A stretch of 36,445 nucleotides of DNA from a virus (IMGVR_UViG_3300025379_000030:1-36445); one strand, 5' to 3'; positions 13,226 to 36,445 are shown, counted from the stretch's first letter. A program made the numbers and translations. Notes: generated by a model not told the origin, from the letters alone.

Positions 13226-13924
13226 TTAGAATTCTACTGCTGGAATTAGCTTTTCATTATTTAGAATACCACTAACTCTTTGATCCCACAAATCGCTTTG
13301 CGATAGATTTATAGATCCTTGGAAATAATGCCAAGATGCTGGGTAAGCCGTACCAATGCCAAGAGTAAAAATTTTACCATTTATATCGGTATACCACTGT
13401 GGCATATCGCAACCTTCTGGGTGAAGAATCTTATGATCGAATCCTTGTTCAATTGCATTCAAAGTTAATTGTTGTGCTACATCAACACATACAGCACCAT
13501 CTGATGATCGATGTTGTTGAGCCATATCTGGACTACCAAGCTTTACCCATGCATCTTTATGTACCATCAAAGTACTTGGTGCAGCAAAGATAATATCTTT
13601 GATCTCTGGTATATGTGAGATATTTTGAGCATTACCCGCAAAACTTTTATTTTCTTCTACCCAGTTATAGATTTCTTGCAACTTTTCTATGTCATGAGGT
13701 AAACAATCGAGATCCATAAAACAGATAACGCCTTCTGAGTCTTTAATAACATCAGTGACCATTTTGCCATGGTCATCTCCAGCTTGAGTAAAATTAACGT
13801 AAGGTTTCACTATGTATTCGATCTCTAAACCAAAGTGATCAAATACTGACTTTTGGTCATTGATCATTTTATACCCCCATTGATCATGAGGCATATTATC
13901 TGTATAGAAAACGTGAAATTTCAT
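13226..13924 (-). CDS. Glycosyltransferase-like protein (GT-A type)
   Basis: 232 residues. The first half shows a Rossmann-like pattern with a DLD motif (residues 71-73, in ICFMDLDCLP), the DxD site that binds a metal and a nucleotide sugar in GT-A enzymes. Residues 108-125 (IKDIIFAAPSTLMVHKDAW) fit the acceptor side, and a conserved-looking RSSDGAVCVD follows around 138-147. The start overlaps the previous stop as TAATG. The fold assignment rests on the DxD motif and overall pattern, so related sugar-nucleotide-binding proteins remain possible. Confidence 0.55.
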   Translation of the reverse strand: MKFHVFYTDNMPHDQWGYKMINDQKSVFDHFGLEIEYIVKPYVNFTQAGDDHGKMVTDVIKDSEGVICFMDLDCLPHDIEKLQEIYNWVEENKSFAGNAQNISHIPEIKDIIFAAPSTLMVHKDAWVKLGSPDMAQQHRSSDGAVCVDVAQQLTLNAIEQGFDHKILHPEGCDMPQWYTDINGKIFTLGIGTAYPASWHYFQGSINLSQSDLWDQRVSGILNNEKLIPAVEF

Positions 13925-14727: not shown

Positions 14728-15284
14728 TTTTTGATTATGAACATCAGATCATCGTACCTATTGTAGGTTGCTCTAAGATCTAAGTATTCAATCCTATCCT
14801 TATATTCTTCAGGAACAGCATTCGTCAAATTAGTGAACCAAGACACATCTTGCACGTCTTCAATGACAAAGATACCACCTTCATTTACTTTTGGCAAGTA
14901 AATACGTATGCAATCAAGCATGCTTTCTAATGTATGTGGACCATCATCGATGACAATATCAAAGTTTGGCAAATTTAATTCAGAATAAGCATTATCAAAA
15001 ATATAATTAATGCCAGGAAGATCTACATATGGTTGTTGTCTATTATCAACTACATCAATGCCATAAATATTAGCTTTACTAAAATATTGCCTCCAAAGAG
15101 CCAGTGAAGACCCGTATTGAATACCTATTTCAAGTAAATTTATTTCTTTATCTTTAAATGGTTCAAATGCTTTGTCATAGAAGCCATTGATGTAGTCATG
15201 AGCACCATGCTTATCAGTGCCAGATGACGGGTTATTATTCCAAAGAATACCTGGATTGTTTTCTATTATTTCTATTAATTTCAT
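14724..15284 (-). CDS. Class I SAM methyltransferase
   Basis: 186 residues. Motif I is LEIGIQYGSS (residues 51-60), followed by IYGIDVVDN (about 73-81) and an acidic DDGPHTLE (113-120) that often sits near the active site of this branch (methyltransferases of macrocin or cephalosporin-hydroxylase type). An IEDVQD segment follows near 140. These enzymes commonly methylate sugars. The ATG begins three bases after the 3' end of a tRNA-Asn gene, so the transcript is likely shared. The stop overlaps the next start as ATGA. Confidence 0.75.
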   Translation of the reverse strand: MKLIEIIENNPGILWNNNPSSGTDKHGAHDYINGFYDKAFEPFKDKEINLLEIGIQYGSSLALWRQYFSKANIYGIDVVDNRQQPYVDLPGINYIFDNAYSELNLPNFDIVIDDGPHTLESMLDCIRIYLPKVNEGGIFVIEDVQDVSWFTNLTNAVPEEYKDRIEYLDLRATYNRYDDLMFIIKK

Positions 15285-15287
15285 AAG

Positions 15288-15359
15288 CTCCCCAGATAGG
15301 ATTCGAACCTATAACCTAGCGATTAACAGTCGCTTGCTCTGCCGTTGAGCTACCAGGGA
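15288..15359 (-). tRNA. tRNA-Asn (GUU)
   Basis: The acceptor TCCCTGG pairs with CTGGGGA using two wobble pairs. The D arm is GCTC/GAGC, the anticodon stem AGCGA/TCGCT encloses CTGTTAA giving GUU, and the T arm is ATAGG/CCTAT with loop TTCGAAT. The discriminator is G. No CCA is encoded (CTT follows), unlike the other three tRNAs here, so the host must add it. Confidence 0.88.
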
Positions 15360-15365
15360 ATGTAA

Positions 15366-16250
15366 TCATAATTCTAAATATTTTTTATACATGAATTCTG
15401 CCCAATATGCTTGATAAGCAATACCATCATGATCTCCATCTCTTGCTTTATCAAAATATTTGGCTTCTTCTAAATTTTTGTTATTGTCTTTATATTCTTT
15501 GATAAAACTCTCTATTTCATCTTCATCAAAATTATAGAATGTTTTAAATTGATCAATCCTGGAATCAGATAATGCTCTCTTCATTGCCGATTCTACATTG
15601 TACCCTGTAAATGACAATAATTTTATATTGTTACTTTCACAATATTGGTTTAACATAAAATAATATTGGTATGCCAATAGATCCATAACTGGGTGGCTAC
15701 CATACCAAGCATCTATAACCTTACCTATTTTTTCATCATAAGCATATGATGCATTTAATTTAGCAATATTTAAAAATATATAATCAGGATTGCCAAACTG
15801 TTTAAAATATTTAAATGATGTTACTATCGAATGCAGCATGGATGAAGCAACACATGCTATATTAAAATAACCTGATACTTTTTCATTGTTTGCAATTAAT
15901 TTATATAGTTTTCTTGACCATTGTTCTTCATATAGCAAACCAGTACCCCATGTATTAGAATCACCTACAAACAATACATGTTTACCGTTATGATCACTAA
16001 TAAACTCTTCTGATCTATAATTATAAGAATTTAACTCTTCTTTTTTTAAAGGTGTTGAAGGCAAAGGTTGGATCGTTCCCAATTGTTTAATTGTTTCCAA
16101 TTCTTCAAATTCTTCAAAGTGTTCAAAACTAATAAATTTTGATTTAGGCAAATCACTGTATAATGATGCATCATCATAGTTTATATTTGTAAGGCTATGT
16201 ACAATTTTTAATGGTAGAACATTAGTTGTATCTAATTTTTGTTCCATCAT
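15366..16250 (-). CDS. SGNH-family hydrolase-like protein
   Basis: 294 residues. Block I is GDSNTWG (96-102) with the catalytic Ser, and block V is Asp271-x-x-His274 in RDGDHDGIAY. A Gly- and an Asn-bearing region lie between, as in SGNH/GDSL hydrolases. Family members remove acetyl or other acyl groups from sugars, lipids or cell walls. Residues 1-90 are an extra N-terminal part. Two ATGs occur in tandem; the second (16247) has the better spacing to AGAGA. Its place beside methyltransferases and a glycosyltransferase-like gene suggests polysaccharide O-deacylation or acyl transfer. Confidence 0.7.
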   Translation of the reverse strand: MMEQKLDTTNVLPLKIVHSLTNINYDDASLYSDLPKSKFISFEHFEEFEELETIKQLGTIQPLPSTPLKKEELNSYNYRSEEFISDHNGKHVLFVGDSNTWGTGLLYEEQWSRKLYKLIANNEKVSGYFNIACVASSMLHSIVTSFKYFKQFGNPDYIFLNIAKLNASYAYDEKIGKVIDAWYGSHPVMDLLAYQYYFMLNQYCESNNIKLLSFTGYNVESAMKRALSDSRIDQFKTFYNFDEDEIESFIKEYKDNNKNLEEAKYFDKARDGDHDGIAYQAYWAEFMYKKYLEL

Positions 16251-16996: not shown

Positions 16997-17332
16997 TTAC
17001 TTCTTCGGTGCAGGTTTCTTAGCAGCAGTAGCCTTCTTAGCAGCAGCTTTAACTGGTGTAGGTGTAGGTGTAGGTGTAGGTGTTACAGTCTTCTTTTGAG
17101 GAAGTACACCGAGCAACCAACCAAACTTAGGGTACTTAGCCTGTAGGAAGTGCACAGCAGCAAAGTATGCGGTTGAGAATGCAGGTGTCAAGTAAGAAAG
17201 GTTACTAGTGTTTAGACTAGCCCACTTAGTTGTTCCCCATGCTACAAGTGCACCAACAATGCTTGCTACAGCACCACGAACAGCAGTGCGAACAGCGGTT
17301 GTCTGGAACGGGTTGTTAATACTTGATGTCAT
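16997..17332 (-). CDS. Holin-like membrane protein with basic tail
   Basis: 111 residues. Two hydrophobic segments (about 17-33, RTAVRGAVASIVGALVAWG, and 47-64) are followed by a Thr-Pro repeat (TPTPTPTPTP) and a Lys/Ala/Pro tail (AAAKKATAAKKPAPKK). Holins are short, have one to three spans and often end in a charged tail. The gene lies close to a probable cell-wall hydrolase at 17562-18104, which supports the idea. A strong AAGGAGA ribosome site and a TAATG overlap with the upstream gene are present. The histone-H1-like tail is longer than usual for a holin, so DNA or lipid binding is an alternative. Confidence 0.5.
   Translation of the reverse strand: MTSSINNPFQTTAVRTAVRGAVASIVGALVAWGTTKWASLNTSNLSYLTPAFSTAYFAAVHFLQAKYPKFGWLLGVLPQKKTVTPTPTPTPTPVKAAAKKATAAKKPAPKK
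17055..17084 (-). repeat. Hexanucleotide tandem repeat coding Thr-Pro
   Basis: Four perfect copies of GGTGTA (plus-strand reading) and one variant, inside the holin-like gene. They encode the Thr-Pro run. Slippage here would change the linker length without breaking the frame. Confidence 0.85.
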
Positions 17333-20579: not shown

Positions 20580-20806
20580 TGGGGTTTGAAAGCGAGCATT
20601 CCTAGATCTCTTAGGTAGTCTTCTACCGTTACACCGTTTATTTCTGCTAAACGGTTGAGAGCGCTCAATAATACGCCTGTTAGAGCACTAAATAGCTCAA
20701 TGGGATTGCTTTCTAGAACCATCTCATAAGCTAGGTCTTCCTGCTCGCTGAGTATGGCTGTAAGTAAGGCTACTACGTTTCCGATATTTTCAGAAGTTGA
20801 ATCCAT
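20576..20806 (-). CDS. Small helical protein, 76 residues
   Basis: Mostly helical, with two amphipathic stretches (about 10-30 and 35-60, IELFSALTGVLLSALNRLAE). It has no Cys and no motif. Start and stop both overlap neighbours, which supports it as a real operon gene between the Dps-like and zinc-finger genes. Similar small helical proteins appear in many actinobacteriophage operons without known function. Confidence 0.55.
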   Translation of the reverse strand: MDSTSENIGNVVALLTAILSEQEDLAYEMVLESNPIELFSALTGVLLSALNRLAEINGVTVEDYLRDLGMLAFKPQ

Positions 20807-21303
20807 TATCCCTCAATAGAAGCTTTCAAGAACCAACTCCATTTTTGGTGTTGATCAATCCGCTCTGCAATAAAATTGGCTACGCCTTGTTCATTACTGT
20901 TGTTAGCTATTTTAAAAGTTTCTTTAATGTGTTGAATATATTCTTCATTCATTATATAAAACTTAGCAGTCAATTCTTTTGGGGATCTACTTACTAAACC
21001 AGATTCTTGGATACCACTCATCTTAACGAGTTGACTCATTACAAATGGGGCTACACTACCAAGTTTAACAATGTTTTCGGCAATTGGATCAATGTGTTCG
21101 TAAATATCATCAACTATTTCATCAAATAGTTTATGATATTCATAAAAATCAGATCCTTTGACATTCCAGTGAAAACCGTGAATCGTGTGATAAAGAACGT
21201 ATGCTTCAGCAAGCATATTCTTTAAAGATTGTACTAGGTCGTTTTCTTTTGTGTCATCTTCGACAGCACCAACGACCCTAAAGCCATTCAAGTTCTCATC
21301 CAT
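20806..21303 (-). CDS. Dps-like ferritin
   Basis: 165 residues with all Dps ferroxidase residues at the exact family spacing: His45, His57, Asp61 and Glu76, plus Trp46. The segment GFHWNVKGSDFYEYHKLF is the family signature. Dps proteins form 12-subunit shells that oxidise and store iron and can coat DNA. The N-terminus is acidic and lacks the Lys-rich tail used for DNA binding in Escherichia coli Dps, so DNA binding is less certain. In a phage it might protect DNA from peroxide or control free iron, which the many Fe(II) oxygenases of this genome also need. Confidence 0.9.
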   Translation of the reverse strand: MDENLNGFRVVGAVEDDTKENDLVQSLKNMLAEAYVLYHTIHGFHWNVKGSDFYEYHKLFDEIVDDIYEHIDPIAENIVKLGSVAPFVMSQLVKMSGIQESGLVSRSPKELTAKFYIMNEEYIQHIKETFKIANNSNEQGVANFIAERIDQHQKWSWFLKASIEG

Positions 21304-24826: not shown

Positions 24827-25557
24827 TATAGTTTTCCAATATCTGCTAATAGGTCTTCTAGGCGCATGTTGCCGTATTGACCTTTTTCTACGATTTCTGG
24901 GGTGATAATTGCCCAGCTTTCATCCATGTAACTTTGCAACCATGTTTGTTCAATCGCTTGAACTTCACCCCAAGTAATTCCATAGAAACAATTTTCATCA
25001 TATCCAACAAGAATAATGCAGTGTCCACCAATAATGTTATTGTCGGCTGGTGTTCCTGTGAGTGCCCATGGCTGGTGATTCTGAAACTGTTCTTCGCATA
25101 CTGATGGGAGTCTAATTCCAATATATGCTAAACCATAGAATGCTATTACGCTTCTAAGTTCATCAAAATCAGCATGATCAGTTGGTGCATAAGCCGCAAT
25201 TTTACCACCAAATATTTCATTCTGTTGCCAGTGTTTAAGCAAATCTGCTTCTACAGCACCGGCATCCTGGCCATTTGTATAAGCTAAGTAAGCTTGTACA
25301 ACTTCATCAGTTGTTGGTGGTAATTCATTTAGTCCAAGTACTTTTGCTGTAGCCATCTTTGCGTGAGCAATACCAGCAAAAGTGCAGTCACCATACTTAT
25401 CATTGCCAAGCATTTCCCATTCAGCAATATTAGGCGTACCAACGGCAGTAGGAGGAGTTGGCAAAGGGTTGTGCTGATAGAACGACAGCATGTGAAGACC
25501 TCGTGGTCTTTTTGGTGCAAGTTTACCCAGCTTACCAATCTTACGTTCTTCTAGCAT
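24826..25557 (-). CDS. Papain-like cysteine protease
   Basis: 243 residues. Cys58 lies in NDKYGDCTFAGIAHA, a C1-type nucleophile context with Gly-Asp before Cys. His179 lies in GGHCIILVGYDEN, and a Trp-Gly (ITWGEVQ, about 195-200) follows where papain enzymes place the third residue. No signal peptide is seen. The N-terminus is basic (KLGKLAPKRPRG). The family is widespread in actinobacteria and occurs in phages, which I state from memory. Possible roles are processing of virion proteins or attack on host proteins. AAGGG lies just upstream of the start. Confidence 0.75.
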   Translation of the reverse strand: MLEERKIGKLGKLAPKRPRGLHMLSFYQHNPLPTPPTAVGTPNIAEWEMLGNDKYGDCTFAGIAHAKMATAKVLGLNELPPTTDEVVQAYLAYTNGQDAGAVEADLLKHWQQNEIFGGKIAAYAPTDHADFDELRSVIAFYGLAYIGIRLPSVCEEQFQNHQPWALTGTPADNNIIGGHCIILVGYDENCFYGITWGEVQAIEQTWLQSYMDESWAIITPEIVEKGQYGNMRLEDLLADIGKL

Positions 25558-25566
25558 AATAACCCT

Positions 25567-25887
25567 TTACTTATATCTTTCGTTAATATTTTGTGATGAT
25601 GCAAAGGCTCCGTGTTTGCCAGCTAATTCTCTCCACATACGGCTATTAGCAAAATAACGTTGGTGGTTAGTTTCACCCATTACCCTTGCTTGGTCTGCAT
25701 TCGTGTGGCAAATATTTGATAATGATGCATGATCTGAATCATTATTTACTGCATCATTGTAATTCTTAAGCCAAGTATGTGGAGCAGACCGCGCATCTGT
25801 ATACTTATCCGCATTCTTCTGTAATTTAACTCTTAAAGTTTCGATAGTGTCGCCTTGAGCCATGGCATAACGTTCAGACCAGTTCAT
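25567..25887 (-). CDS. Hypothetical protein with MNWxxRYA leader
   Basis: The second of two tandem ATGs is chosen: it has AAGG at better spacing and then the product starts MNWSERYAMAQGD, matching the leader at 35218-36316. The product has 106 residues, mostly helical, rich in Asn, His and Ala, with no Cys cluster (one Cys only). The start overlaps the stop of the HNH-like gene. Function unknown. The leader links it to the group at the right end although the bodies are unrelated. Confidence 0.6.
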   Translation of the reverse strand: MNWSERYAMAQGDTIETLRVKLQKNADKYTDARSAPHTWLKNYNDAVNNDSDHASLSNICHTNADQARVMGETNHQRYFANSRMWRELAGKHGAFASSQNINERYK

Positions 25888-26324
25888 CATTTGCCTTCTT
25901 GTTTGCTAATAAGGTTACGTACATACTTTTCTGCTTCAAAATCACTAGCAGCAGCCGTGTGAATGCCTCCAGGGCCTCTGTGGTGGGCTTCACAGAGCCA
26001 TTCAAGGTTGTTTGCAGACTCAACCCATGCTCCAACGGAATCAGGGTCAGAAATGCCAGGGTAATCGACTTCAAGCCACTTTAACTCAACGCCGTTTTGC
26101 AGAGAAAACTCTACGTGGCTGTGGTGAAGCTCCAAAGGCTTATCTAGAGAGCATTCACTAAAGTCATTACGATGCAAACCAACGCTGCACTGCGCAGTAT
26201 CCTTTGTTCTTTTTCTGTAAGAATTAAAATCCTTGTAGTGTGGATCGGAGGTGCGCTCAGGATGAGCAGGATAGTGAATAGTATAGTGGTGAGTAATATT
26301 TCCATCGTGCTCCTCTATGGTCAT
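25887..26324 (-). CDS. HNH-endonuclease-like protein
   Basis: 145 residues. The metal-finger parts are visible: LHHSHVEF (66-73), Asn105-Asn106 (ANNLEWLC), then Cys111-x-x-His114-His115 and His122 (GGIH). An HNH finger normally binds one catalytic metal and cuts DNA. This version matches, from memory, a small HNH-like protein common in actinobacteriophages. It could nick DNA, for example in packaging or replication, or have only a binding role. It overlaps the upstream gene by ATGA. Confidence 0.7.
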   Translation of the reverse strand: MTIEEHDGNITHHYTIHYPAHPERTSDPHYKDFNSYRKRTKDTAQCSVGLHRNDFSECSLDKPLELHHSHVEFSLQNGVELKWLEVDYPGISDPDSVGAWVESANNLEWLCEAHHRGPGGIHTAAASDFEAEKYVRNLISKQEGK

Positions 26325-26746
26325 TGTTCGTCTCGTTTCTTGTTTTCAAGAAAATCAATAACTTCTTCTAAGCTATTAAAGAACATTATGTCTTCCTGAA
26401 GAGACTTATCATTATCTTCGTCATAGCCTACATAGATATCAATGCCAAAGATATTAGAAAGTATCTCTGCAAACTCAAAAAGAGTGATATCTTTTGAGTA
26501 TTCCATAAAGTATCCATCACTATTACTGGAATCACTGATAGTTACACGGTAATTTTTTACTTTTGGTGAAATTTCATCATTTTTATCAAAAAATGACGTT
26601 TTTTTGAAGTTTTTATAGGAAATTTGACGAATTTTGTCGGTTTTTTCCTTAAATTCAGCAATTTTTAGCTGTTTTTCAGTGTTTTTTGTGTTATTTTTGC
26701 AATTACAAGCATCAAGATTGCAATTTTTTTCACAAGGATTAGACAT
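26321..26746 (-). CDS. Hypothetical protein with Cys-rich N-terminus
   Basis: 141 residues. The first 16 residues contain four Cys (NPCEKNCNLDACNCKNN). A Lys-rich stretch and an ordered C-terminal half (about 65-135) of alpha/beta type (YRVTISDSSNSDGYF, then DITLFEFAEILSNIFG) follow. A promoter-like sequence lies upstream, so this may be the first gene of a transcript running to the Dps-like gene or beyond. No family is recognised. Confidence 0.6.
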   Translation of the reverse strand: MSNPCEKNCNLDACNCKNNTKNTEKQLKIAEFKEKTDKIRQISYKNFKKTSFFDKNDEISPKVKNYRVTISDSSNSDGYFMEYSKDITLFEFAEILSNIFGIDIYVGYDEDNDKSLQEDIMFFNSLEEVIDFLENKKRDEQ

Positions 26747-26762
26747 GTTTTCCTTAAGTTAT

Positions 26763-26793
26763 ACTATAGGAGATTTTAAGATATGCCTGTCAA
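26763..26793 (-). promoter_or_regulatory. Sigma-70-like promoter candidate
   Basis: On the minus strand, TTGACA (26788-26793) is followed after 19 bases by TATAGT (26763-26768), and a TATAAC overlaps just after it. The spacing is two bases longer than ideal. It lies in a 73-base gap between two genes, upstream of the gene at 26321-26746, where a new transcript start would make sense. Confidence 0.4.
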
Positions 26794-26819
26794 GGCTTAT
26801 AACGTAAATTTTTATTAAT

Positions 26820-28250
26820 TTATTTTTCTTTTTCTCTCATTTTGTTTAACAAATCTTCTTTTGCTTGGTTAGCTTCAGCTGCCGACTCAGATCTTGGTCG
26901 TTGTTTTACTTTGTTGGGTTGTCCTGGTGTTATCGGAGTAACATCATCGGATGAATATTCTTTTTCCCAGAATTTTGGATTACGTCCTGAGGTTTCACTC
27001 AGTGCTGAGAGGTCAAGCTTCGGTGTATCCATTGGGATAGCAACATCGTTACCCATAAATAGTTCGTGGTTTTCATCTTGTCTACCATTTTTAACATGGT
27101 GAAGATAGGTTGAACCATGTTCACTGATCCAAAGTTGACGGTGTGGCGTACGCTTGCCAATATCACCTAGCCCAGAAACACGTCCTTCTTTGCCTTCACC
27201 CAAGTGTTTGCTTGCACCCATTGGGAAACTAGTAAAGTATGCATCTCTAAGTGCTTTGTCAGAACTGTTAGCTGCTTTGTTGTGATCTTGCATATCGAAT
27301 ACAGTATTGGAAACGTGAAGAGTTTGGTCCAAAGCACATCGTGGGCAGTGACACATTACCCAGTCAGCAGTTTTGGCTTTTTCATGTAGTGCTTTCAATG
27401 CTGGGTGTTTAGGTTCTGTGTGATCAAGAATATTACCAATAACACCACTCAATTGATGGTGGATATTAATTGGCTTTTGATCTTTAGCAAGATATTTAAA
27501 GTTTTCGTTTTCACCCTTGTCGTAATCTTCAGGTGGCACTGAGATCCCGTGAGCATGTGCATTAAGAACTTTTGCTACTTTAAAATAATCACCAATGTTG
27601 GTAGATCCTTTGTCAATAAGGTTCTTATAAGCTTCTGATCGAGCAGATTCGATCTTACCGAGTTCTTGCATTGGTTCAGCATACTGAGGTCTACGATTGC
27701 CCTGGTGATCTACAGAAAGATATTGACCAACAAGTATTGGCTTACCTTTTCTGTCTTCAGCAATTTGTTGTTTTGGGTTCCAGGCATAACTGCTAACTTT
27801 AAGCCCTCGTAGATTAGGAAAGTTCTTATTTGTGATTTCCATATTTAGAACGTCACCTAGGTTAGCATAATTCTTCAGCTTAGAAAGCTGGTGGTTATAG
27901 TTCCAATTACCACTAGATCCTTTTTCAAGGCCAAGGATGTCTTGTGCTTCTTCACTAGGTTCGTTTAGACCTTGTTGCTTATAACTTCCACCACACTTGT
28001 CTGAGCAACGGCTGCGACAAAGTCGTGAACCTCCACCATTGCATTCGCTGTCAGCACCACAAGAATGGTGACAACCAAGAAGATAGTGATTAGCAGTGGC
28101 TTCTGCACTACGTGGGACGTGATTATTCTCAGGATCTTCAGCGTGGAAGTGATATCCGTTATTAGCAAGATGAGTTAGACTTTTGCGTGGCTCGTCGCCT
28201 TTGGCAGCGAATACGCTATTAAATTTCTTAGTGCTGTTAAAACTTCTCAT
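26820..28250 (-). CDS. Cys-rich hypothetical protein, 476 residues
   Basis: Starts MRSFNSTKKFNSVFAAKGDE, a basic-aromatic-Ala leader loosely like the RYA group. Residues 60-86 hold six Cys and two His (GCHHSCGADSEC, LCRSRCSDKC), a probable multi-metal or disulphide knot. A second cluster MCHCPRC lies near residue 300. In between is a mixed domain with YFKVAKVLNAHAHG and many His. The last 80 residues are polar. An AGAGAT ribosome site is present. No family recognised. It resembles the zinc proteins at 4948-12371 in style. Confidence 0.6.
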   Translation of the reverse strand: MRSFNSTKKFNSVFAAKGDEPRKSLTHLANNGYHFHAEDPENNHVPRSAEATANHYLLGCHHSCGADSECNGGGSRLCRSRCSDKCGGSYKQQGLNEPSEEAQDILGLEKGSSGNWNYNHQLSKLKNYANLGDVLNMEITNKNFPNLRGLKVSSYAWNPKQQIAEDRKGKPILVGQYLSVDHQGNRRPQYAEPMQELGKIESARSEAYKNLIDKGSTNIGDYFKVAKVLNAHAHGISVPPEDYDKGENENFKYLAKDQKPINIHHQLSGVIGNILDHTEPKHPALKALHEKAKTADWVMCHCPRCALDQTLHVSNTVFDMQDHNKAANSSDKALRDAYFTSFPMGASKHLGEGKEGRVSGLGDIGKRTPHRQLWISEHGSTYLHHVKNGRQDENHELFMGNDVAIPMDTPKLDLSALSETSGRNPKFWEKEYSSDDVTPITPGQPNKVKQRPRSESAAEANQAKEDLLNKMREKEK

Positions 28251-28300
28251 GTTATCTCTTTTTTTTAATGGACTACATGAACTATTACAAAATACCTATG

Positions 28301-28317
28301 AAATTACACTGTTTTAG
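28301..28317 (-). promoter_or_regulatory. Second copy of the shared intergenic motif
   Basis: On the minus strand this reads CTAAAACAGTGTAATTT, one base different from 4935-4951. It again overlaps the stop of the previous gene, about 50 bases before the start of the next (28250). The shared position suggests a common promoter or processing signal at two transcript boundaries. Confidence 0.3.
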
Positions 28318-28985
28318 GAGCCAGTCTCCTGATAAAACTCTGGCTTATGGTACTTGTCACTGTAGTCCAACATGGTTACTAAAGAATACTTAACACCTGA
28401 TTTAACTGGCATGGCTCGGTGCGGATAAGCAAACGTAGATGGGAATACAATTAAATCTCCAGCCTTTGGCTTTATGTTTAGTTCCTGGAGTCTAAAGTAG
28501 ATCTCTCCGCCCTCATATTCGTCATTTAGATACGCTACAAGAGATACTGTACAGTTGTACGAGAAACCGTGGTCATGGTGCTCCATGAAATGTTGGCCTT
28601 CGCCATAACGAACAAAGTTAAAAGCTTCCCAATACCTTAGATTGTGGATGTTATTTGTTCTTGAATAATCATCGACTGCTGCTTTCTGTGCATCGTAGCA
28701 TTCTTGCCAGATCTGCTGTAGTTCTTTTGACTCTTGGCTTAGGTCTCCTGCTATATCGCTTTTCTTAAATTTAAAATCGATACAGTCTCTATATTCAGGC
28801 ATTCTTTCTTGGTAACCAACATAAGCTGGTTGCCAATTATAATGGTTATTACCATTCAAAACTTTTTCTAATCTTTTTATAATATCCCACTCTGGTTTTA
28901 TTACATCTCTATAGAGAGTTATGCAATTACCTAAGTCTTCCTTAGAACTCCAAGTTTGCTCGTATGTCATTTCTTGCATGCTCAT
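28314..28985 (-). CDS. 2OG-Fe(II) oxygenase (array member 8)
   Basis: The ATG at 28985 is chosen because AGGAGG lies nine bases upstream and it overlaps the previous stop as ATGA. The 223-residue product has His136-x-Asp138 (HHDHG), His189 (AYPHR), and Lys199 where Arg usually binds 2-oxoglutarate. The array signature YLNDEYEGGEIYF and IKPKAGDLIVFPS are present. It is the last gene of the oxygenase run. Hydroxylation of a protein or glycan is likely. The Lys version occurs in known members of the superfamily and need not mean loss of activity. Confidence 0.88.
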   Translation of the reverse strand: MSMQEMTYEQTWSSKEDLGNCITLYRDVIKPEWDIIKRLEKVLNGNNHYNWQPAYVGYQERMPEYRDCIDFKFKKSDIAGDLSQESKELQQIWQECYDAQKAAVDDYSRTNNIHNLRYWEAFNFVRYGEGQHFMEHHDHGFSYNCTVSLVAYLNDEYEGGEIYFRLQELNIKPKAGDLIVFPSTFAYPHRAMPVKSGVKYSLVTMLDYSDKYHKPEFYQETGS

Positions 28986-29704
28986 TCTATTGGCCCTCCT
29001 GTGGGTCCGTAATTGCTTGGCAGAATTTTTTCTCCCTTGGATTCTGCTTCTTCCCAACCTTTTAATTGTACAGCTTGTTGTGCTCTAACTGCCTTAAGAC
29101 TCTCAGCCCATTCATCTATTTTTTCTTGAGTATATTCTGATTCTTCATAGTCCCAAAATTGACCAATGGTAAATCTTTCTCCAGACGTAATCAATGATAT
29201 ACCATGCTGGTTATTATGTCCACCATCAAATGCTGCTAATAGACCAGTTTTTGGTTTAATTGAAACATTATGATCAGGAAAGAACAATTCTCCACCATCA
29301 AAATTATCATTCAAATATATAAACGTTGCCCACTTGCTTCTTTCGAATTCATTGTACTTACCATCTGTACTATTATCTGAATGAGGATTTGTAAAACCTC
29401 CTGTAGCCCATATTTGTGCATGTGGGAAACCAATTGGCTTTAGACCACTACCACGAGCAAGTTCTGCAGCTTCTTTCATTCTAGAACTCAAAGACTCAAC
29501 AAGATCTTTAGGTAATCCAAAATCAACCATATCATCGCCTACTGGCAAGTTGGCTGCAGATGATCCATAGAATCCAATTCTATTCCATTCAAGTTTGCCA
29601 TTCTTTTCTGAGTGATCCCAATATTTAATGATAGCATCACATTCTTCTTTACTCAAGAAGTTTTCAAAAACAACGATATCATCTTTGTAATTTATTCTGT
29701 TCAT
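28982..29704 (-). CDS. 2OG-Fe(II) oxygenase (array member 7)
   Basis: 240 residues. His108-x-Asp110 (PHSDNS), His167 (NQHGIS) and Arg177 (SGERFTI) form the metal and 2-oxoglutarate sites. The first 13 residues are identical to those of the next oxygenase upstream except for the start of the diverging part, so the two are tandem duplicates. A helical tail of about 55 residues (QEKIDEWAESLKAVRAQQ) is extra compared with its twin. The start lies five bases after the twin's stop. Confidence 0.9.
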   Translation of the reverse strand: MNRINYKDDIVVFENFLSKEECDAIIKYWDHSEKNGKLEWNRIGFYGSSAANLPVGDDMVDFGLPKDLVESLSSRMKEAAELARGSGLKPIGFPHAQIWATGGFTNPHSDNSTDGKYNEFERSKWATFIYLNDNFDGGELFFPDHNVSIKPKTGLLAAFDGGHNNQHGISLITSGERFTIGQFWDYEESEYTQEKIDEWAESLKAVRAQQAVQLKGWEEAESKGEKILPSNYGPTGGPIE

Positions 29705-29709
29705 ATATA

Positions 29710-30264
29710 CTATTCCTCTTTACCCCAAAAACCACTAATTTTGTATCTTGTACCAGATGTAATAATTTTTACTCCATGTAGATTGTTGCCACCATGAAAA
29801 ATGGCAAGCATTCCGGGAGTTGGTTTTATTTCAAGAGGTCTATCATGAAATTGTAGTTCTCCACCTTCAAAATCATTGTTTAGATATAAACCTGTAGCCC
29901 ATTGGACTGATGAATCTTTACCACTGTTATCATAGTGAAAAGAAGCATAGGCTCCTTTCATCCATTTTTGTGGGAACGCACCAATTTTTCTTATTTTATA
30001 ACTACTAACTAATTCTGTTGCTTCAATAATTTTTTTCTCTAAATTAGCAAAATAATCTATCGGTAAACCAAATTTAGTTATTTCAATATCATTGTATATC
30101 ATTGTAGAACCGAATGCATTGTTAAATGAATTGTTTCCCCAAGGCCATTGCATTCTTCCTTTGATAGTAGAATCTTCCCAATATTTAAGAATAGAATTGC
30201 ATTCGTCTTCACTTATAAAATTATTGAATACAACGATATCATCTTTATAATTTATTCTATTCAT
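29710..30264 (-). CDS. 2OG-Fe(II) oxygenase (array member 6)
   Basis: 184 residues, the shortest of the set. His110-x-Asp112 (FHYDNS), His163 (NLHGVK) and Arg173 (SGTRYKI) are in place. The signature is LYLNNDFEGGELQF. It shares MNRINYKDDIVVF and the following ECxxIxKYW with member 7. It lacks that protein's helical tail. The start follows the dehydrogenase stop by one base. Confidence 0.88.
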   Translation of the reverse strand: MNRINYKDDIVVFNNFISEDECNSILKYWEDSTIKGRMQWPWGNNSFNNAFGSTMIYNDIEITKFGLPIDYFANLEKKIIEATELVSSYKIRKIGAFPQKWMKGAYASFHYDNSGKDSSVQWATGLYLNNDFEGGELQFHDRPLEIKPTPGMLAIFHGGNNLHGVKIITSGTRYKISGFWGKEE

Positions 30265-30265
30265 A

Positions 30266-30937
30266 TTACAATACGTATTTGCTACCGTTTATATGAGCTA
30301 TTTCTAAATGGTTTATGTTTACATGGCTTGGTAGTGATCCCACCCATCGTATAGCTTCAGCCATATCTTCTGCAGTTAATGCGTGATCTTTCTTTTCTGT
30401 TTGAGTATCAATAGTTCCTGGACAAATTTCTGTTACTGTAATCCCATATTGTGGAAACTCTAACCTCATGGTATCAACTAGACCCATTTGGCCTCGTTTT
30501 GCATTGGAATAATTGCCTGATCCTCTAAATGGAACTTGTCCACACAACGAAGAAATAAATATAATTGTCGGTGAATCAGATTTCATCATTGAAGGGATAA
30601 GTAATTGAGAAATGTACATTGGGCCACCTACATTTATATCGTAGGCCCTTCTAAAATTTTCCATAGTTTCATATATTAGATACGTTGGACCAGCACCACC
30701 ACCAGCATTGTGAACCAATAGATCTATTGTATCTTCTTCATATTTTTTACAAAACGATTCAATTGATTCTTCATCTGTTACATCTAGTTTATTTACTTCA
30801 ACGTTCTCAGATTCTAAATCTTTCATGGCATCTAAATCTCTGGACGCTGCAATGACTCTATACCCGCTATTTTCCAGAAGCTTGACCGTTGCCCTACCTA
30901 CACCTCTGCTTGCTCCAGTAACTATTGCTGTTTTCAT
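30266..30937 (-). CDS. Short-chain dehydrogenase/reductase
   Basis: 223 residues with the classic SDR series: TGASRGVG (7-14, dinucleotide loop), HNAGG (76-80), Asn102, Ser130 (FISSLCG), Tyr143 and Lys147 (NYSNAK). The Arg at 11 and the ASRD after strand 2 (about 31-34) favour NADPH. SDR enzymes reduce or oxidise carbonyl and hydroxyl groups. Here it is flanked by oxygenase pairs, so it could act on the group they hydroxylate. Few phages carry such genes; it was probably acquired from a host. The start overlaps the previous stop as ATGA. Confidence 0.9.
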   Translation of the reverse strand: MKTAIVTGASRGVGRATVKLLENSGYRVIAASRDLDAMKDLESENVEVNKLDVTDEESIESFCKKYEEDTIDLLVHNAGGGAGPTYLIYETMENFRRAYDINVGGPMYISQLLIPSMMKSDSPTIIFISSLCGQVPFRGSGNYSNAKRGQMGLVDTMRLEFPQYGITVTEICPGTIDTQTEKKDHALTAEDMAEAIRWVGSLPSHVNINHLEIAHINGSKYVL

Positions 30938-31629
30938 TGTGGTTCTTCTCCTTCTGCAAACCCTTGCAACTTCATATCATTATGTATCCAATGCCCTGTA
31001 ATCATATACTTAAATCCAGTTTTGACAAGGTGGGCGGTATGAAAATACGGAGCAGAAGATGGAAAAATAATTAAACTATTTGCTTTCGGTTTAATTCCTA
31101 CATCAAATTGTTTTAATTCTAAAGCTTCATCATAATCTATTTCAATCCAAGGTTTTTTCATAACGTCGTTTTTATAGTCTACCATTTTAAAAGAAATTTC
31201 TCCGCCTTCATATTCATCATTCAAATATAAAACAAAAGAATATCTCAGCGATGTGTCGCCTTGTAGTTGATCAAAATGAGAACCCATGCATGTTCCGGTG
31301 TAATATTTTTTAATATCAAACGATGGGAAGAATCTTGGTTCGTCATAGTCTCCTATAGATTCTGCATAGTCTTTAGCAACATTATAAAAAGTATTTTTAA
31401 TTGCATGAAAGATATATGACATGTATCCCAATGACAAAGGATCTTCTAGTTCTTCAATTCTAAGTATATCAAATGACCTAGTCTCTCCATAAATATGATT
31501 TTTGTCACTAGAAGAATGCCATGTCTCCCAACCAGTATCTACTTTTTTTAAAATTTTATTAAAAGTATCAAAATCTGGTATTACGTTCTCGTAATAATTA
31601 ATTTTGTTGTACAATACAGTTTTATCCAT
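30934..31629 (-). CDS. 2OG-Fe(II) oxygenase (array member 5)
   Basis: 231 residues. His118-x-Asp120 (GSHFDQ), His197 (YFHTAH) and Lys207 in the 2-oxoglutarate position. Signature YLNDEYEGGEISF. An insert of about 25 residues after it (KNDVMKKPWIEIDYDE) is shared with the next oxygenase upstream, showing the two are tandem duplicates (both start MDK and share NYYENVIPDFDxF-type sequence). It overlaps the dehydrogenase start by ATGA. Confidence 0.88.
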   Translation of the reverse strand: MDKTVLYNKINYYENVIPDFDTFNKILKKVDTGWETWHSSSDKNHIYGETRSFDILRIEELEDPLSLGYMSYIFHAIKNTFYNVAKDYAESIGDYDEPRFFPSFDIKKYYTGTCMGSHFDQLQGDTSLRYSFVLYLNDEYEGGEISFKMVDYKNDVMKKPWIEIDYDEALELKQFDVGIKPKANSLIIFPSSAPYFHTAHLVKTGFKYMITGHWIHNDMKLQGFAEGEEPQ

Positions 31630-32282
31630 TACATCATTCCATTGTTATTAGGTTCTATACCTTCATGTAAACAATGGCCTGGAACCATATACTTAAAACT
31701 TTTAAAAACGGTGTGGGCAGTGTGATAGTATGGAGCAGAAGATGGGAAGATGACCATGCTATTTGCCTTTGGTTTAATCCCTACATCAAAATGTTTATCT
31801 ATCCTTGCATAAAGATATTGTGGGTGAACAATTACTCTTTCTTTAGCTTCATCATAATCTACAATCTTAAAAGAAATTTCTCCACCTTTATAATCATCAT
31901 TTAGATACATGACCATAGAGTACTTTAAACTTTTATCACCATATTGTTGATCAAAATGAGCACCCATATATGAATCAGGATGGTATCTCTTTATATGAAG
32001 AAATGGGTGCATCTTTAGTTCGTCATAATCACCTAAGGATTCCGCGTAATCTTTACTGGCCTTGTAAAATGCATCTATCAGTGTATTATAAAGATATGAC
32101 AAATTTTCATTATCACTGTCTAGGAATAACATTTGCTCTTCTCCATAAAAAGTAATTGGTTCAGCGCATGAGTTCCATGCTTCCCAACCATCTGCTTTTT
32201 CTAATGCTTCTTTGAATTTATCAAAATCTGGTATTACATTTTCGTAATAATAAATTTTTTCGTGTAATATTTGCTTATCCAT
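31629..32282 (-). CDS. 2OG-Fe(II) oxygenase (array member 4)
   Basis: 217 residues. His109-x-Asp111 (GAHFDQ), His187 (YYHTAH) and Lys197. Signature YLNDDYKGGEISF, followed by an insert like that of member 5. The C-terminus is shorter. It overlaps member 5 by TAATG. The pair differ mainly in residues 35-65, which in this fold often lie near the substrate entry, so they may act on different targets. Confidence 0.88.
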   Translation of the reverse strand: MDKQILHEKIYYYENVIPDFDKFKEALEKADGWEAWNSCAEPITFYGEEQMLFLDSDNENLSYLYNTLIDAFYKASKDYAESLGDYDELKMHPFLHIKRYHPDSYMGAHFDQQYGDKSLKYSMVMYLNDDYKGGEISFKIVDYDEAKERVIVHPQYLYARIDKHFDVGIKPKANSMVIFPSSAPYYHTAHTVFKSFKYMVPGHCLHEGIEPNNNGMM

Positions 32283-32288
32283 ATAGTC

Positions 32289-32966
32289 CTATTTAGTATT
32301 GTAGTTTTCTATTACTGTCCAAAAAAATGGACAAGTAAATCTAAGTCCAGAAGTTACTGTTGTTACTCCATGAACATAATTCATGTCACCTGGGAAAAAG
32401 TATGCAGATCCTGCTTTTGGTTTAATTTTTACATTTTGGGCTGGGAAGTATAATTCTCCACCCTCGTAATCATCATTGAAATAAAAGATTGATGCTATGT
32501 CATAGTATGGGAAAGCGTTTGGCTTACCAGCATCTGGTCCTTCATGTAATTCTTTATCAGCATGTGGAGTTTGATGAGTACCCACTGGCCATTTAACAAC
32601 TGCAGGGCCCGTTGCTCTAACATTTACATTAAAGAACTTATCTACTTTAACTTTAAGTCTTTGTTGCATGTCTTGAATCAAAGGCAAAATTGTTGGATCT
32701 ACTTTTTGTAAAGAAGCGTGCGTTGCAACTCTATCTGCCCAATAATCTGCATCATAAATTACCGTTCCATTTTCATTCTTTTTGCTTTCGGTAACATCCC
32801 AGACTGTGTTGTTGACGGCAAAGTTTCTAAGTTTTTCTTGTTCTTCTGGCGTAAGAAAGTCTGATACTTCTACAATGTTATCTGATGAATCGCCAAAGTA
32901 TCCAGATGGTATAAGTGATACAAACTCACTTTGATTTTCATTTTTATTTACAATATTTTCTTCCAT
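32289..32966 (-). CDS. 2OG-Fe(II) oxygenase (array member 3)
   Basis: 225 residues from the ATG at 32966, which has AAAGG eight bases upstream. A GTG nine bases before it is less likely. His135-x-Asp137 (PHADKE), His199 (YVHGVT) and Arg209 (SGLRFTC). Signature YFNDDYEGGELYF. A longer N-terminal part (about 30 residues) is polar. The start follows the previous stop by one base. Confidence 0.9.
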   Translation of the reverse strand: MEENIVNKNENQSEFVSLIPSGYFGDSSDNIVEVSDFLTPEEQEKLRNFAVNNTVWDVTESKKNENGTVIYDADYWADRVATHASLQKVDPTILPLIQDMQQRLKVKVDKFFNVNVRATGPAVVKWPVGTHQTPHADKELHEGPDAGKPNAFPYYDIASIFYFNDDYEGGELYFPAQNVKIKPKAGSAYFFPGDMNYVHGVTTVTSGLRFTCPFFWTVIENYNTK

Positions 32967-32967
32967 G

Positions 32968-33675
32968 TTACTCACCTTTAATAACTTTCAGTCTTATTAG
33001 TTTAACTTCGTGTTCACCAACTTTTTTACCTTCATGGTTTACAGCATTTCTATAAAAGTCTGAGAACTTACCAGATTTATTAATGTGACCTATTACTTCA
33101 TGGTAACCTATATAATCTTGATGATATGAGATTGGCACTTCATTATAATTTTTGATATGCAATTCTGTATTCTGTAGATTAGTTAAAGATATTGGGATGA
33201 CTGCCATGACTGGAGTCCCTGCTTTAATAGTTATTTCTTTATTAGCTTCTGTAATTCTCCAAGCGCATGGTAAACTACTATTGTAAAAAGAAGTACTAAT
33301 TAATGTTGTAAATGGAGATACGCCAGCTATGTGTTGATTAGGTACTGGCATAGCCAAAAGACTATAATCCTGTGGTGTTTTAAAAATGATCCCAGTGTTA
33401 AAACTTATTGTTGCATTGCCTCTGTTTGGATTGACATACTTTTCTCCAGTTAAAATCTTAACATGGTCTGGTGTTGTATCAACTATGCCATCCCAAATAA
33501 AAGTAATATCTTCAGGGAAAGAGATACCCCAACCTAAACCATTAGCAAGGCTTATTGGGAAACATCTATAAGCATGTAAGTCAGCTGTTTCATCCATCCA
33601 TTCTCTTTTTACATTTAATGGATCTACACTGGCAAACCCTTTGGTCATTTCATAGGCAACGAAATCATCTATCAT
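32968..33675 (-). CDS. Hypothetical protein, possibly DUF6065-like
   Basis: 235 residues from the ATG at 33675, which overlaps the previous stop as TAATG and has AGGTGG upstream. The pattern CFPISLANGLGWGISFPED (about 38-56) and the beta-rich body recall proteins of the DUF6065 type, which is a memory-based and uncertain match. It has no Fe/2OG triad. Such proteins often sit beside 2OG oxygenase or glycan genes, so it may be a partner or substrate-binding protein of the array. Function unknown. Confidence 0.55.
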   Translation of the reverse strand: MIDDFVAYEMTKGFASVDPLNVKREWMDETADLHAYRCFPISLANGLGWGISFPEDITFIWDGIVDTTPDHVKILTGEKYVNPNRGNATISFNTGIIFKTPQDYSLLAMPVPNQHIAGVSPFTTLISTSFYNSSLPCAWRITEANKEITIKAGTPVMAVIPISLTNLQNTELHIKNYNEVPISYHQDYIGYHEVIGHINKSGKFSDFYRNAVNHEGKKVGEHEVKLIRLKVIKGE

Positions 33676-34292
33676 TATTCGGGCCACCTATCAGTTTTGT
33701 CTTTGTCTTTAGTGTAGTAAGATACGATTGTATACTTAATACCATTATTAACAGTACCAAAGCTATGTGAATAATCATGAGTGCCTGGGTAGGCAACCAT
33801 TGTTCCTGGTTCTGGTTTTATTTCAATATCTTTTTTAGGGAAATATATTTCTCCACCGTCAAAATCATTGTTTAAAAAACAAAGAGATGAATAGATACGA
33901 TGTGGGAATGGGTACTCTTCCCCTGGTGTAACGTATTCACTATCTGGATCATATTCACCATCTGCATGGACAATTTGGTAATCGCCTTCAAACCACCTAA
34001 CGATAAACAATGAATCACCGTATATTGGTTCTGTAAAACCTTGGGTCTCAATAATATGTTTAATAATACGTTTACGTAAATTTACGAGTAATTCTATAAC
34101 TATTTTTTCTTTAGGGTTATCAATGTCTAAATGATTCACATCAATAATACGATTATCCCAGAAACTATCATCAGGTCTTTTATTTTCGTCGTCAGGTATT
34201 GTGTGCCAGCCAAGTGGGGCTTCATTCTCAATATAATTAAGAACTGTACTTATCTCTTCTGTACTTAGAAAGTTTGGTTTTACTGATATCAT
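33675..34292 (-). CDS. 2OG-Fe(II) oxygenase (array member 2)
   Basis: 205 residues. His109-x-Asp111 (VHADGE), His176 (YSHSFG) and Lys186 in place of Arg. Signature FLNNDFDGGEIYF, then IKPEPGTMVAYPG. An acidic insert after the HxD (residues 112-128) is peculiar to this copy and could shape the active-site lid. Its stop overlaps the next start as TAATG. Confidence 0.88.
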   Translation of the reverse strand: MISVKPNFLSTEEISTVLNYIENEAPLGWHTIPDDENKRPDDSFWDNRIIDVNHLDIDNPKEKIVIELLVNLRKRIIKHIIETQGFTEPIYGDSLFIVRWFEGDYQIVHADGEYDPDSEYVTPGEEYPFPHRIYSSLCFLNNDFDGGEIYFPKKDIEIKPEPGTMVAYPGTHDYSHSFGTVNNGIKYTIVSYYTKDKDKTDRWPE

Positions 34293-34294
34293 TG

Positions 34295-35092
34295 TTATTG
34301 TGCTTTACTAGGCATGGCATGACCAAACATACCTATAAACTTACGATCCTTTGAATCAAATCCACCAGTTACTGCATGAGCACACTTATACAGATCAGAG
34401 ACAACAAGGTCACCCTGTTGCCATTCGTGAACGATTCTATTCTTTTCATCTTTTGTAACAAAGCTAAGGATATCATTCATTATTGTAGTGAACTTTGTTT
34501 GCTCCATTTTTGTTGATGGTCTCCCATCATAATTATTAAGTTTATACTTACCCCAGAATGGCATACGCAATACAGGCTCATTAGTTATCCAATGATAATT
34601 GACCAATGCGTAATCGTTGATAGCAGGATCAGACCCACCAGCATCTGCAATGCACTTCTTTAAAAACTCTTTGGTGTCATCGGGAAGCGTCTTATAGAAT
34701 TTGCACATATCATAAAAATACGTCTTACCATTTTTTTTATCAATATTAAAGATCTCATTATTCCAATTACCATATATAATACTATTAGTATAATTAAAAT
34801 GTTCTTGGTGCCACGGTACTCGTATGTCATCACCAGTATCATCGCCAGCACCTTTATTCAAGCGTGCATGATCTTCTATATATTCATCGCGGCCACCCTC
34901 TGTCTTGTTAGGGAAACCATTAAATATTTTTCCAAGGGTACGATGAAGTTCGTATTGTTCGTCTATGTCAAGGTTGGCGTTCCTAAAGACAAATACTATG
35001 TCTTTTAATAGCATATCTAAATATAAATCGGGGTTATCTTCAATGTGTTGTAAGCCCGGCCATTCAATAATTTTTGGTGACTTGGATTCCAT
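34295..35092 (-). CDS. TauD/TfdA-like 2OG oxygenase (array member 1)
   Basis: 265 residues. His95-x-Glu97 (PWHQEHF), His239 (KCAHAVTGG) and Arg250 (SKDRKFIG). This is the TauD-type arrangement with long spacing between the metal ligands; Glu in place of Asp is less common. TauD relatives act on small molecules such as taurine, amino acids or sugars. It is the first gene of the array after a non-coding gap with a GC-rich repeat, so a promoter may lie there, though I see no convincing one. Its ribosome site is weak. Confidence 0.75.
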   Translation of the reverse strand: MESKSPKIIEWPGLQHIEDNPDLYLDMLLKDIVFVFRNANLDIDEQYELHRTLGKIFNGFPNKTEGGRDEYIEDHARLNKGAGDDTGDDIRVPWHQEHFNYTNSIIYGNWNNEIFNIDKKNGKTYFYDMCKFYKTLPDDTKEFLKKCIADAGGSDPAINDYALVNYHWITNEPVLRMPFWGKYKLNNYDGRPSTKMEQTKFTTIMNDILSFVTKDEKNRIVHEWQQGDLVVSDLYKCAHAVTGGFDSKDRKFIGMFGHAMPSKAQ

Positions 35093-35141
35093 ACTTACTT
35101 AGTCAACAATTCATAACTTTTACATATATGACAAAAGCCAT

Positions 35142-35185
35142 AATTCGGGAGGGGCGGCGCGGCTTGCATATATCTATCCCGAATT
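35142..35185. repeat. GC-rich inverted repeat in a gap
   Basis: A 9-base perfect inverted repeat (AATTCGGGA / TCCCGAATT) with a 26-base loop lies between the 42-residue gene and the TauD-like gene. Part of the loop (GGGGCGGCGCGGC) is very GC-rich in an AT-rich genome. No T tract follows. It could be a protein-binding site, a structured leader RNA or a recombination site. Confidence 0.5.
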
Positions 35186-35217
35186 TTTATAATTCTTTAA
35201 TGAGATCGTAATATAGC

Positions 35218-35346
35218 TTATTCGTCTTCATCATCGGGAACGCAGTTGGGTACTTCACGACCATTCTTCTTCTTCATGCCACACTGGTGATAACCCTTCC
35301 AGCATTTGCCATAGTGTTCTGTTGCGTATCTAGTATTCCAGTTCAT
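35218..35346 (-). CDS. 42-residue protein with leader and VPNCVP end
   Basis: It starts MNWNTRYATEHYGK, continues CWKGYHQCGMKKKNGREV and ends PNCVPDDEDE. The second part matches, from memory, a short Cys-Trp-Lys-Gly-Tyr...Lys-Lys...Val-Pro-Asn-Cys-Val-Pro peptide seen in many T4-like and marine phage head proteins, although its function there is not known to me. The ATG overlaps the previous stop (ATGA), with GAGGTGA as ribosome site. The three Cys might bind metal or form a disulphide. Confidence 0.65.
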   Translation of the reverse strand: MNWNTRYATEHYGKCWKGYHQCGMKKKNGREVPNCVPDDEDE

Positions 35347-35996
35347 TGATATTTCACCTCACCTACAGCATTTCCCTTATGTTGTGAATTCTTAGTACTA
35401 CCATCAGCAAATGTTACTCTTCCATGTTGAAATGGTATAGCACCTACGAATGGTGTAGTACTAATATGATTTTTGGGAATATAGTAAGTACCAAATGCTG
35501 CTTCGGGACTTGTAGAGTCACGGCTAATTATATGTTCTTCTGGCATACCTTTTATTAATCCATGTGCTTTATATCTAAAACTACCATCTGATTGTTTTTC
35601 AGCAGCAGGTTGATTGTGTTTTATAAAATGTCCTATCCCACTATGACGTGGGTCAATAAATACTGTATTCTCCCAATTTTCAGTATAGCGTCCTTGTGTG
35701 TCTAGATTTTTATAGCTATCGGGACGAGTAGTCTTATAAGTCTCTTGTGCTTTAGGTGATAAGGTTTTAGTATAACTACCATCACTTCCAAGTGTGTAGT
35801 TACTACCACCAGTTGTACCACCATCAAAGAAGAAGTCGGTATTTATTTCACCAGAAAATCCAGTAACTTTTTTGCCCTGTGGTACAGTAGGGAGTTTGTG
35901 TGAAGACCACTCATTCCAATCAATTGAAGACAGAGGCTCCCATGGTATCCACTTACGGGTATTTTTATCAGTAGCGTATCTAGCTTTCCAGTTCAT
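35343..35996 (-). CDS. Hypothetical protein with MNWxxRYA leader
   Basis: The ATG at 35996 is chosen because it overlaps the previous stop (TAATG) and gives the start MNWKARYATDKNTRK; an upstream start would cut into the previous gene. 217 residues. It has an aromatic N-terminal part (WIPWEPLSSIDWNEW), a Gly/Thr/Ser-rich middle and a beta-type C-terminal half (HGLIKGMPEEHIISRDS; FGTYYIPKNHI). No Cys cluster and no catalytic motif are recognised. The leader is shared with both neighbours. Confidence 0.6.
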   Translation of the reverse strand: MNWKARYATDKNTRKWIPWEPLSSIDWNEWSSHKLPTVPQGKKVTGFSGEINTDFFFDGGTTGGSNYTLGSDGSYTKTLSPKAQETYKTTRPDSYKNLDTQGRYTENWENTVFIDPRHSGIGHFIKHNQPAAEKQSDGSFRYKAHGLIKGMPEEHIISRDSTSPEAAFGTYYIPKNHISTTPFVGAIPFQHGRVTFADGSTKNSQHKGNAVGEVKYQ

Positions 35997-36316
35997 TATT
36001 CGTCCATCAGATCTTTCCAATAGTCATCGTTGGCTTCGCGAGTGCCCTGTTGGTTACATTCTTTACAACCACGTCCTAAGCAATTAACGCAAGGATCAGT
36101 TATTTTACCTGTTCCATTGCAATTAATACAATCACGCCCATGCAGTATTGTTCGAACATATTTACCAGTTCCTTCACAAGAAGGACAATTTGGAAGAGAT
36201 TCATATTGACGCATCTTCTTTACCATTTCAGCAGTGCTTTCAAAACTTTCATCAGGAGTAAAGTCAGCATCAATGCTTAGTTCTTTATCGTTAGCGTATC
36301 TAAGATTCCAGTTCAT
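35996..36316 (-). CDS. Stand-alone DnaJ-type zinc-finger protein
   Basis: 106 residues. It starts MNWNLRYAND. Four CxxC units form a full DnaJ central zinc domain: Cys44/47 (CPSCEGTG), 63/66 (CINCNGTG), 76/79 (CVNCLGRG) and 84/87 (CKECNQQG). There is no J domain or substrate-binding part, so it cannot work as a normal DnaJ with DnaK. Such domains bind unfolded protein or act as thiol or metal modules. Together with the leader this suggests a small head-associated or assembly-helper protein. Confidence 0.8.
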   Translation of the reverse strand: MNWNLRYANDKELSIDADFTPDESFESTAEMVKKMRQYESLPNCPSCEGTGKYVRTILHGRDCINCNGTGKITDPCVNCLGRGCKECNQQGTREANDDYWKDLMDE

Positions 36317-36317
36317 A

Positions 36318-36445
36318 CTATTCCTCGTCGATCATACCAATTATAGAGTAAGCGTGTTGTGTTAAATTATTTGCATGCTTTATTAAACTGTCTTTCATAG
36401 CATCGTTGTATTCTTTGTACTTTTCATTAGGAGTCTCTATGTGGT
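36318..36445 (-). CDS. C-terminal part of a gene, 5' end outside window
   Basis: An open frame enters from the right edge and ends with TAG one base before the next start. The visible 41 residues are polar and helical (NEKYKEYNDAMKDSLIKHAN) and end IIGMIDEE. Nothing identifies the family. It belongs to the same operon as the leader-bearing genes that follow. Confidence 0.55.
   Translation of the reverse strand, partial: HIETPNEKYKEYNDAMKDSLIKHANNLTQHAYSIIGMIDEE

Follow-up and report, generated by a model that had tools for sequence, protein, structure and literature searches.

The record IMGVR_UViG_3300025379_000030, a 36,445-base stretch of DNA from a freshwater bacterial virus (henceforth referred to as 'the window'), contains a run of ten tightly packed genes on its minus strand, from position 35092 to 28314, eight of which encode intact 2-oxoglutarate (2OG)-Fe(II) oxygenases. 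We consider that this run is probably a multi-enzyme prolyl-hydroxylation module for a (PPFF)n-type repeat of a tail or fibre protein of the virion that is encoded elsewhere in the genome. A preliminary description of this DNA had listed eight oxygenases, a dehydrogenase and an unassigned protein here and had read them as a dedicated modification system. All eight oxygenase reading frames are present on the minus strand and exceed the Pfam cut-offs (seven PF13640, one TauD), and the gene order is TauD, prolyl 4-hydroxylase (P4H)-type, DUF6065, three P4H-type, a short-chain dehydrogenase/reductase (SDR) and three further P4H-type genes. The list was correct overall, except that the ATG at 28985, and not 29057, is the most likely start of the last gene, since from there the gene overlaps its neighbour by 4 bases, as the orthologue L082:6657-7331 does, and that a ninth oxygenase outside the run (13924-14727) had not been counted.

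Because the spacing between adjacent genes is only -4 to +6 bases, the ten genes look like a single transcription unit; a promoter scan detected no more sites than in shuffled sequence. The seven PF13640 proteins score 30.7-58.2 bits against a curated cut-off of 27 (7/7 above), and each of the seven retains the H, D, H metal triad and the distal R/K for 2-oxoglutarate, as had been noted from the start. When PF13640 domains from all loci were compared, the four catalytic residues were present in 323 of 338, and most of the remaining 15 were truncated open reading frames (ORFs). The idea that some P4H copies are dead is thereby rejected, that some serve as structural domains only is not supported, and homologues largely devoid of the metal triad were not what we found. 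The dN/dS values between window genes and their orthologues in the L082 locus (0.04-0.31) indicate purifying selection.

To place the window virus we used its portal gene (395-2776), which has 76 relatives in IMG/VR. Since this protein and the portal of Mycobacterium cluster C phages (Bixzunavirus) share ~40% identity, the virus is assigned on sequence grounds to an actinophage-like lineage (lineage 1, Bixzunavirus-like). Four records (G001, G003, G004 and G026) have a portal 100% identical to that of the window, and another (G002) has 20 kb in common with it at 99.99%, including part of the array. No PF13640 gene is present in 31 of the 37 long lineage-1 relatives, other genes occupy the corresponding slot in L084, L085, L088 and L089, and the array is an acquisition. 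A more distant relative (G005, 92% portal identity) keeps the order of the array and has no TauD gene, no 29710 copy and three extra oxygenase-like genes.

The DUF6065 gene matched 180 stretches in IMG/VR, and the counts given here for the module rest on the best 80 loci. In 80/80 of these, the window type included, P4H-type genes flank DUF6065 on one or both sides in conserved order, with 1-10 (usually 4-7) P4H genes per stretch. They include a second phage lineage (lineage 2), whose portal is 57% identical to that of Streptomyces phages of the Stanwilliamsviridae and in which the module has tail-fibre-type genes on one side and genes for portal, prohead protease and capsid on the other. A quick tree of the P4H proteins contains five orthogroups common to the two lineages (SH-aLRT 88-100): the window gene at 28314-28985 groups with lineage-2 position m1 (support 99), that at 32289-32966 with p1 (support 98), those at 28982-29704 (orthologue, support 99) and 29710-30264 with p3, those at 31629-32282 and 30934-31629 with p4, and L082:9804 with p2, of which the window has no member. 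Because the same orthogroups occur in two unrelated lineages, the module genes travel as a set, and because that set keeps its order wherever it recurs (at least 80 viral loci), the run is more than a chance assembly; genes that never travel together would have looked otherwise, and the view of a dedicated modification system is supported. Within one array, the P4H paralogues diverge much more than orthologues do across lineages, which speaks for separate roles of the copies. We therefore regard it as highly improbable that the run is unrelated cargo, collected in a hypervariable slot and serving no shared function: the slot is indeed empty or otherwise filled in relatives, and SDR, TauD and extra P4H genes differ between lineages, but the conserved gene order already contradicts this explanation, as do orthogroups common to unrelated phages and purifying selection. 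No match was found in cultured phages to the DNA of window positions 25000-36445, or by tblastn with one P4H or with DUF6065.

The candidate substrate emerges from what the arrays accompany. In lineage 2, an FN3 protein (49 family members) whose repeats read, for example, PPFFPPFFPPFF or PPGFFAPPSFFAPP is encoded no more than a few genes upstream of the array. Homologues of this protein were fetched by its non-repeat part only, and among loci with at least 5 kb of downstream sequence, three or more P4H genes were present in 28/28 with the (PPFF)n repeat and in 0/19 without it (a P-value of 1e-13, which overstates independence). On the FN3 tree the repeat was gained or lost at least three times. 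We also scanned IMG/VR with a DNA pattern of three PPFF units, without reference to any oxygenase, which returned at least 120 stretches. Among the 48 records of at least 15 kb, PF13640 was present in 44, at three or more copies in 35 and at six or more in 33, and DUF6065 in 37. As controls, PF13640 was present in 0/31 lineage-1 records without PPFF, and 7/23 FN3 records without the repeat had at least one copy (4/23 at least three), scattered over records of more than 110 kb; the corresponding P-values (6e-12 and 1e-5) overstate independence, as the loci are related and the records are fragments. Since (PPFF)n is attached, in the vicinity of P4H genes, to several N-terminal families that are unrelated to each other, it is the repeat, and not its carrier protein, that follows the enzymes. 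The FN3 part gave no tblastn match in cultured phages. In some lineage-2 FN3 proteins (L158:1321-2613) the PPFF repeat is followed by a Hint/intein-like stretch (CIDQDTLISV...) that Pfam does not name.

The association extends to the window's own species. In lineage 1, PPFF is confined to four records of this species (portal 100%), and the 31 others have neither PPFF nor the array. The PPFF protein (375 aa, L094:6299-7426) is followed by genes for two phrog_7084 proteins, a sulfotransferase, an Asp/Asn hydroxylase, a methyltransferase-like protein, a P4H and an APS kinase. In G009, which has no array, the flanking tail genes are kept and the PPFF block is missing. One of the records that hold the PPFF gene (G004) overlaps the window by 24.9 kb at 99.98-100%. 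As another possible target we considered a membrane protein (16997-17332) for its (PT)n tail and set it aside, as array-less relatives also have the gene (the comparison was of the gene, not of the repeat).

Several observations weigh against a (PPFF)n repeat as the substrate of the module. The PPFF gene lies ~43 kb from the array in the window lineage, and no single record spans both. One group of PPFF proteins on an unrelated tail-type carrier (L253 and seven relatives) has no P4H gene in its stretches or in the two records searched (36.8 and 19 kb, both fragments), and 4 of the 48 PPFF records, again fragments, have none. The relatedness of the loci inflates all such counts, and it is safe to speak of several independent co-occurrences, namely three or more changes of state in the FN3 tree, lineage 1 and the further carrier families. 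Enzymes of PF13640 act on non-protein substrates too. Finally, an S74-type collagen-like tail fibre adjoins the array in 22 lineage-2 loci and could be an alternative or additional target. Collagen is the classical P4H substrate, and a collagen-like run occurs in 16/24 PPFF loci as compared to 4/23 loci without PPFF. However, a collagen-like neighbour is missing from many lineage-2 arrays, the G001 pieces examined yielded none, and many GXY runs there contain few prolines; it is thus unlikely that the main target is this fibre, or several virion proteins, and not PPFF.

The predicted structure of one enzyme of the run is consistent with a protein substrate. The AlphaFold2 (AF2) model of the enzyme at 32289-32966 (pLDDT 90.6) adopts the double-stranded beta-helix fold of prolyl hydroxylases, and its best match in the PDB is collagen prolyl 3-hydroxylase 1 (P3H1; Z 16.5 over 180 residues, 18% identity), which is also among the top sequence matches. 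P3H1 is an animal endoplasmic reticulum enzyme complexed with CRTAP and PPIB, and in this it differs from the phage protein. P3H1, PHD2, vCPH of the virus PBCV-1, the P4H of P. putida and LH3 are nearest to the model (Z 14.8-16.5), and PiuC-type PKHD hydroxylases are also among the matches; going by the model, the nearest solved structures are nearly all protein hydroxylases. The vCPH enzyme (PDB 5c5t, VIA Z 15.8) is alike in its P4H-type fold, catalytic residues and viral origin, and acts on proline-rich peptides according to Eriksson 1999 as cited in PMC9301287. In contrast to the window enzymes, it stands alone in a virus of a eukaryotic alga, with no array, DUF6065 or linked PPFF protein.

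Among bacterial viruses, marine cyanomyoviruses carry 2OG-Fe(II) oxygenases of the same protein family (phrog_61) in several copies, up to five per genome (PMC3037559 Table 3), so the background is higher than the one or two copies earlier ascribed to most phages; no array with DUF6065 is described there. These copies have been explained by 2OG/nitrogen metabolism or DNA repair (PMC3037559), and by analogy the window enzymes could alter host metabolism or host proteins, through 2-oxoglutarate consumption, DNA repair or hydroxylation of EF-Tu or another host protein. The P. putida P4H among the structural matches is indeed bound to EF-Tu, but such roles would leave the many distinct conserved paralogues, the linkage to tail genes and the tight PPFF association unexplained, and we consider them very unlikely.

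The targets originally suggested were virion proteins or surface sugars. Since the array follows (PPFF)n on tail-type proteins, virion proteins are clearly favoured over sugars. An array that decorates a glycan of the virion or host surface, with the SDR and the methyltransferases of a second cargo slot as further steps, would fit the SDR inside the run, the FkbM-type and Methyltransf_24 genes and GDSL-like protein at 12600-16250 and the resemblance of the sulfotransferase in phrog_3347 to galactose-3-O-sulfotransferase. No glycosyltransferase was found in the array or beside the lineage-2 arrays, the proline repeat and not glycan genes is what the array tracks, and the nearest solved structures of the modelled enzyme are mostly peptidyl hydroxylases; a glycan target is accordingly improbable. 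The sulfotransferase (PF03567) and APS kinase (PF01583) that adjoin the PPFF gene in the window species lie within L094:9905-12902, and a sulfotransferase-like gene precedes the array in 22 lineage-2 loci.

The gene that had been left unassigned in the run (32968-33675; ATG at 33675 chosen over GTG at 33687) encodes a DUF6065 protein (PF19541, E 7.9e-31, 107.8 bits against a cut-off of 26.6). Its fold is predicted to be dUTPase-like: the AF2 model has a pLDDT of only 75, and dUTPases match it at a Foldseek E of 2e-4 and VIA Z 10-11 over 114-141 residues. The position of the catalytic dUTPase motif 3 (G-x-I-D-x-x-Y) reads ISTSF, with no Asp, in an alignment made by eye. The phrog_7084 proteins, which are distantly related to DUF6065 (hhalign E 1e-4), have an invariant GIIDxD stretch like motif 3. 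We infer that DUF6065 may be a catalytically altered dUTPase-like partner. In haloarchaeal tailed viruses a DUF6065 relative of the phrog_7084/DUF6065 type likewise adjoins tail-fibre and adhesin genes, but no oxygenase is annotated nearby and identity is 24-31%. A search of bacterial and archaeal genomes for DUF6065 gave a single match (L367), itself a phage fragment with the same module binned in a Chitinophagaceae metagenome-assembled genome (JAFMJX010000128.1), and therefore no cellular context. A literature search for DUF6065, limited to open-licence papers, returned nothing, and an earlier description elsewhere is possible.

The individual genes of the run, all on the minus strand, are as follows. 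The TauD/TfdA-type 2OG-Fe(II) oxygenase (34295-35092, 265 aa; PF02668 E 7.7e-12, 46.1 bits against a curated cut-off of 27) has, as judged by eye, the HxE (HQE) and distal His/Arg (CAH...DRK) motifs, and is a lineage-1 accessory (family 19, found in 8 loci and not in L082). The P4H-type enzyme at 33675-34292 (205 aa, PF13640 E 6.2e-7), with complete catalytic residues, belongs to a lineage-1 orthogroup (tree place W_m1). Beyond DUF6065 lie the P4H-type genes at 32289-32966 (E 7.6e-9), 31629-32282 (E 9.6e-11) and 30934-31629 (E 4.1e-11), the latter two being paralogues with 54% identity. The SDR (30266-30937; PF00106 E 2.6e-40) is conserved in lineage-1 arrays (17 loci) with a dN/dS of 0.13. 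The P4H-type protein at 29710-30264 (184 aa, E 1e-8) is a divergent tandem paralogue (50% identity) of that at 28982-29704 (E 3.2e-9) and has no counterpart in L082; the latter matches the Bacillus P4H 3itq (phmmer E 2.7e-7). The last gene (28314-28985, 223 aa, E 1.7e-15) has a dN/dS of 0.04.

Outside the run, the ninth oxygenase (13924-14727, minus strand; PF13640 E 2.3e-13) occupies a separate variable slot for cargo genes, the second in the window and flanked by tRNA genes (12600-16250), together with an FkbM methyltransferase, an unknown protein, Methyltransf_24 and the GDSL-like protein. A phage-encoded ferritin/Dps-like protein (20806-21303, PF00210) is kept in relatives. Many small proteins of this phage group have an N-terminal or internal 'MNWNxRYA' / 'WSxRYA' motif (window 35343-36020, 35996-36316 and 25567-25890; small ORFs in L082 and L088). 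In ~20 relatives (L043, L058-L064, L066-L078) the match to the portal gene is 3.0-3.5 kb long rather than 2.4 kb, suggestive of an insertion such as an intein, an intron or similar.

Taken as a prolyl-hydroxylation module, the array would be expressed as one unit, and each of its non-redundant P4Hs would have its own target residues in the repeat, most likely prolines, which it would hydroxylate prior to assembly. DUF6065 would be a partner in the module, and SDR and TauD would be lineage-specific helpers that add or alter further groups. Because sulfotransferase and APS kinase genes adjoin the PPFF gene in the window species, some hydroxyls may be sulfated. Through hydroxylation the repeat would acquire its conformation, stiffness or chemistry, probably to a mechanical end (an extended, stiff rod) or a protective or receptor-related one, between which the data do not separate. 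More tentatively, we propose an assembly line in which at least five regiospecific P4H-type hydroxylases, DUF6065 and sulfation enzymes yield a hydroxyproline-rich, possibly sulfated (PPFF)n virion rod. This rod would be the bacterial-virus equivalent of the hydroxyproline-rich proteins of plants and algae, and the assembly line would be swapped as a unit between unrelated phages. The hydroxyproline-rich glycoproteins (extensins, mastigonemes; PMC11015965), proline-rich repeat rods that are hydroxylated and then decorated, serve as a working analogy only: they are eukaryotic and glycosylated, and have no sequence relationship to the PPFF unit or to the enzymes of the phage.

If the array does act in this way, it would provide a rare example of a bacterial-virus protein whose prolines are heavily hydroxylated by several enzymes, as well as a source of new regiospecific prolyl hydroxylases, and DUF6065 would gain a context. 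It would also answer what phage prolyl hydroxylases are for; the candidate substrate can be named, the gene set is defined and the test is simple.

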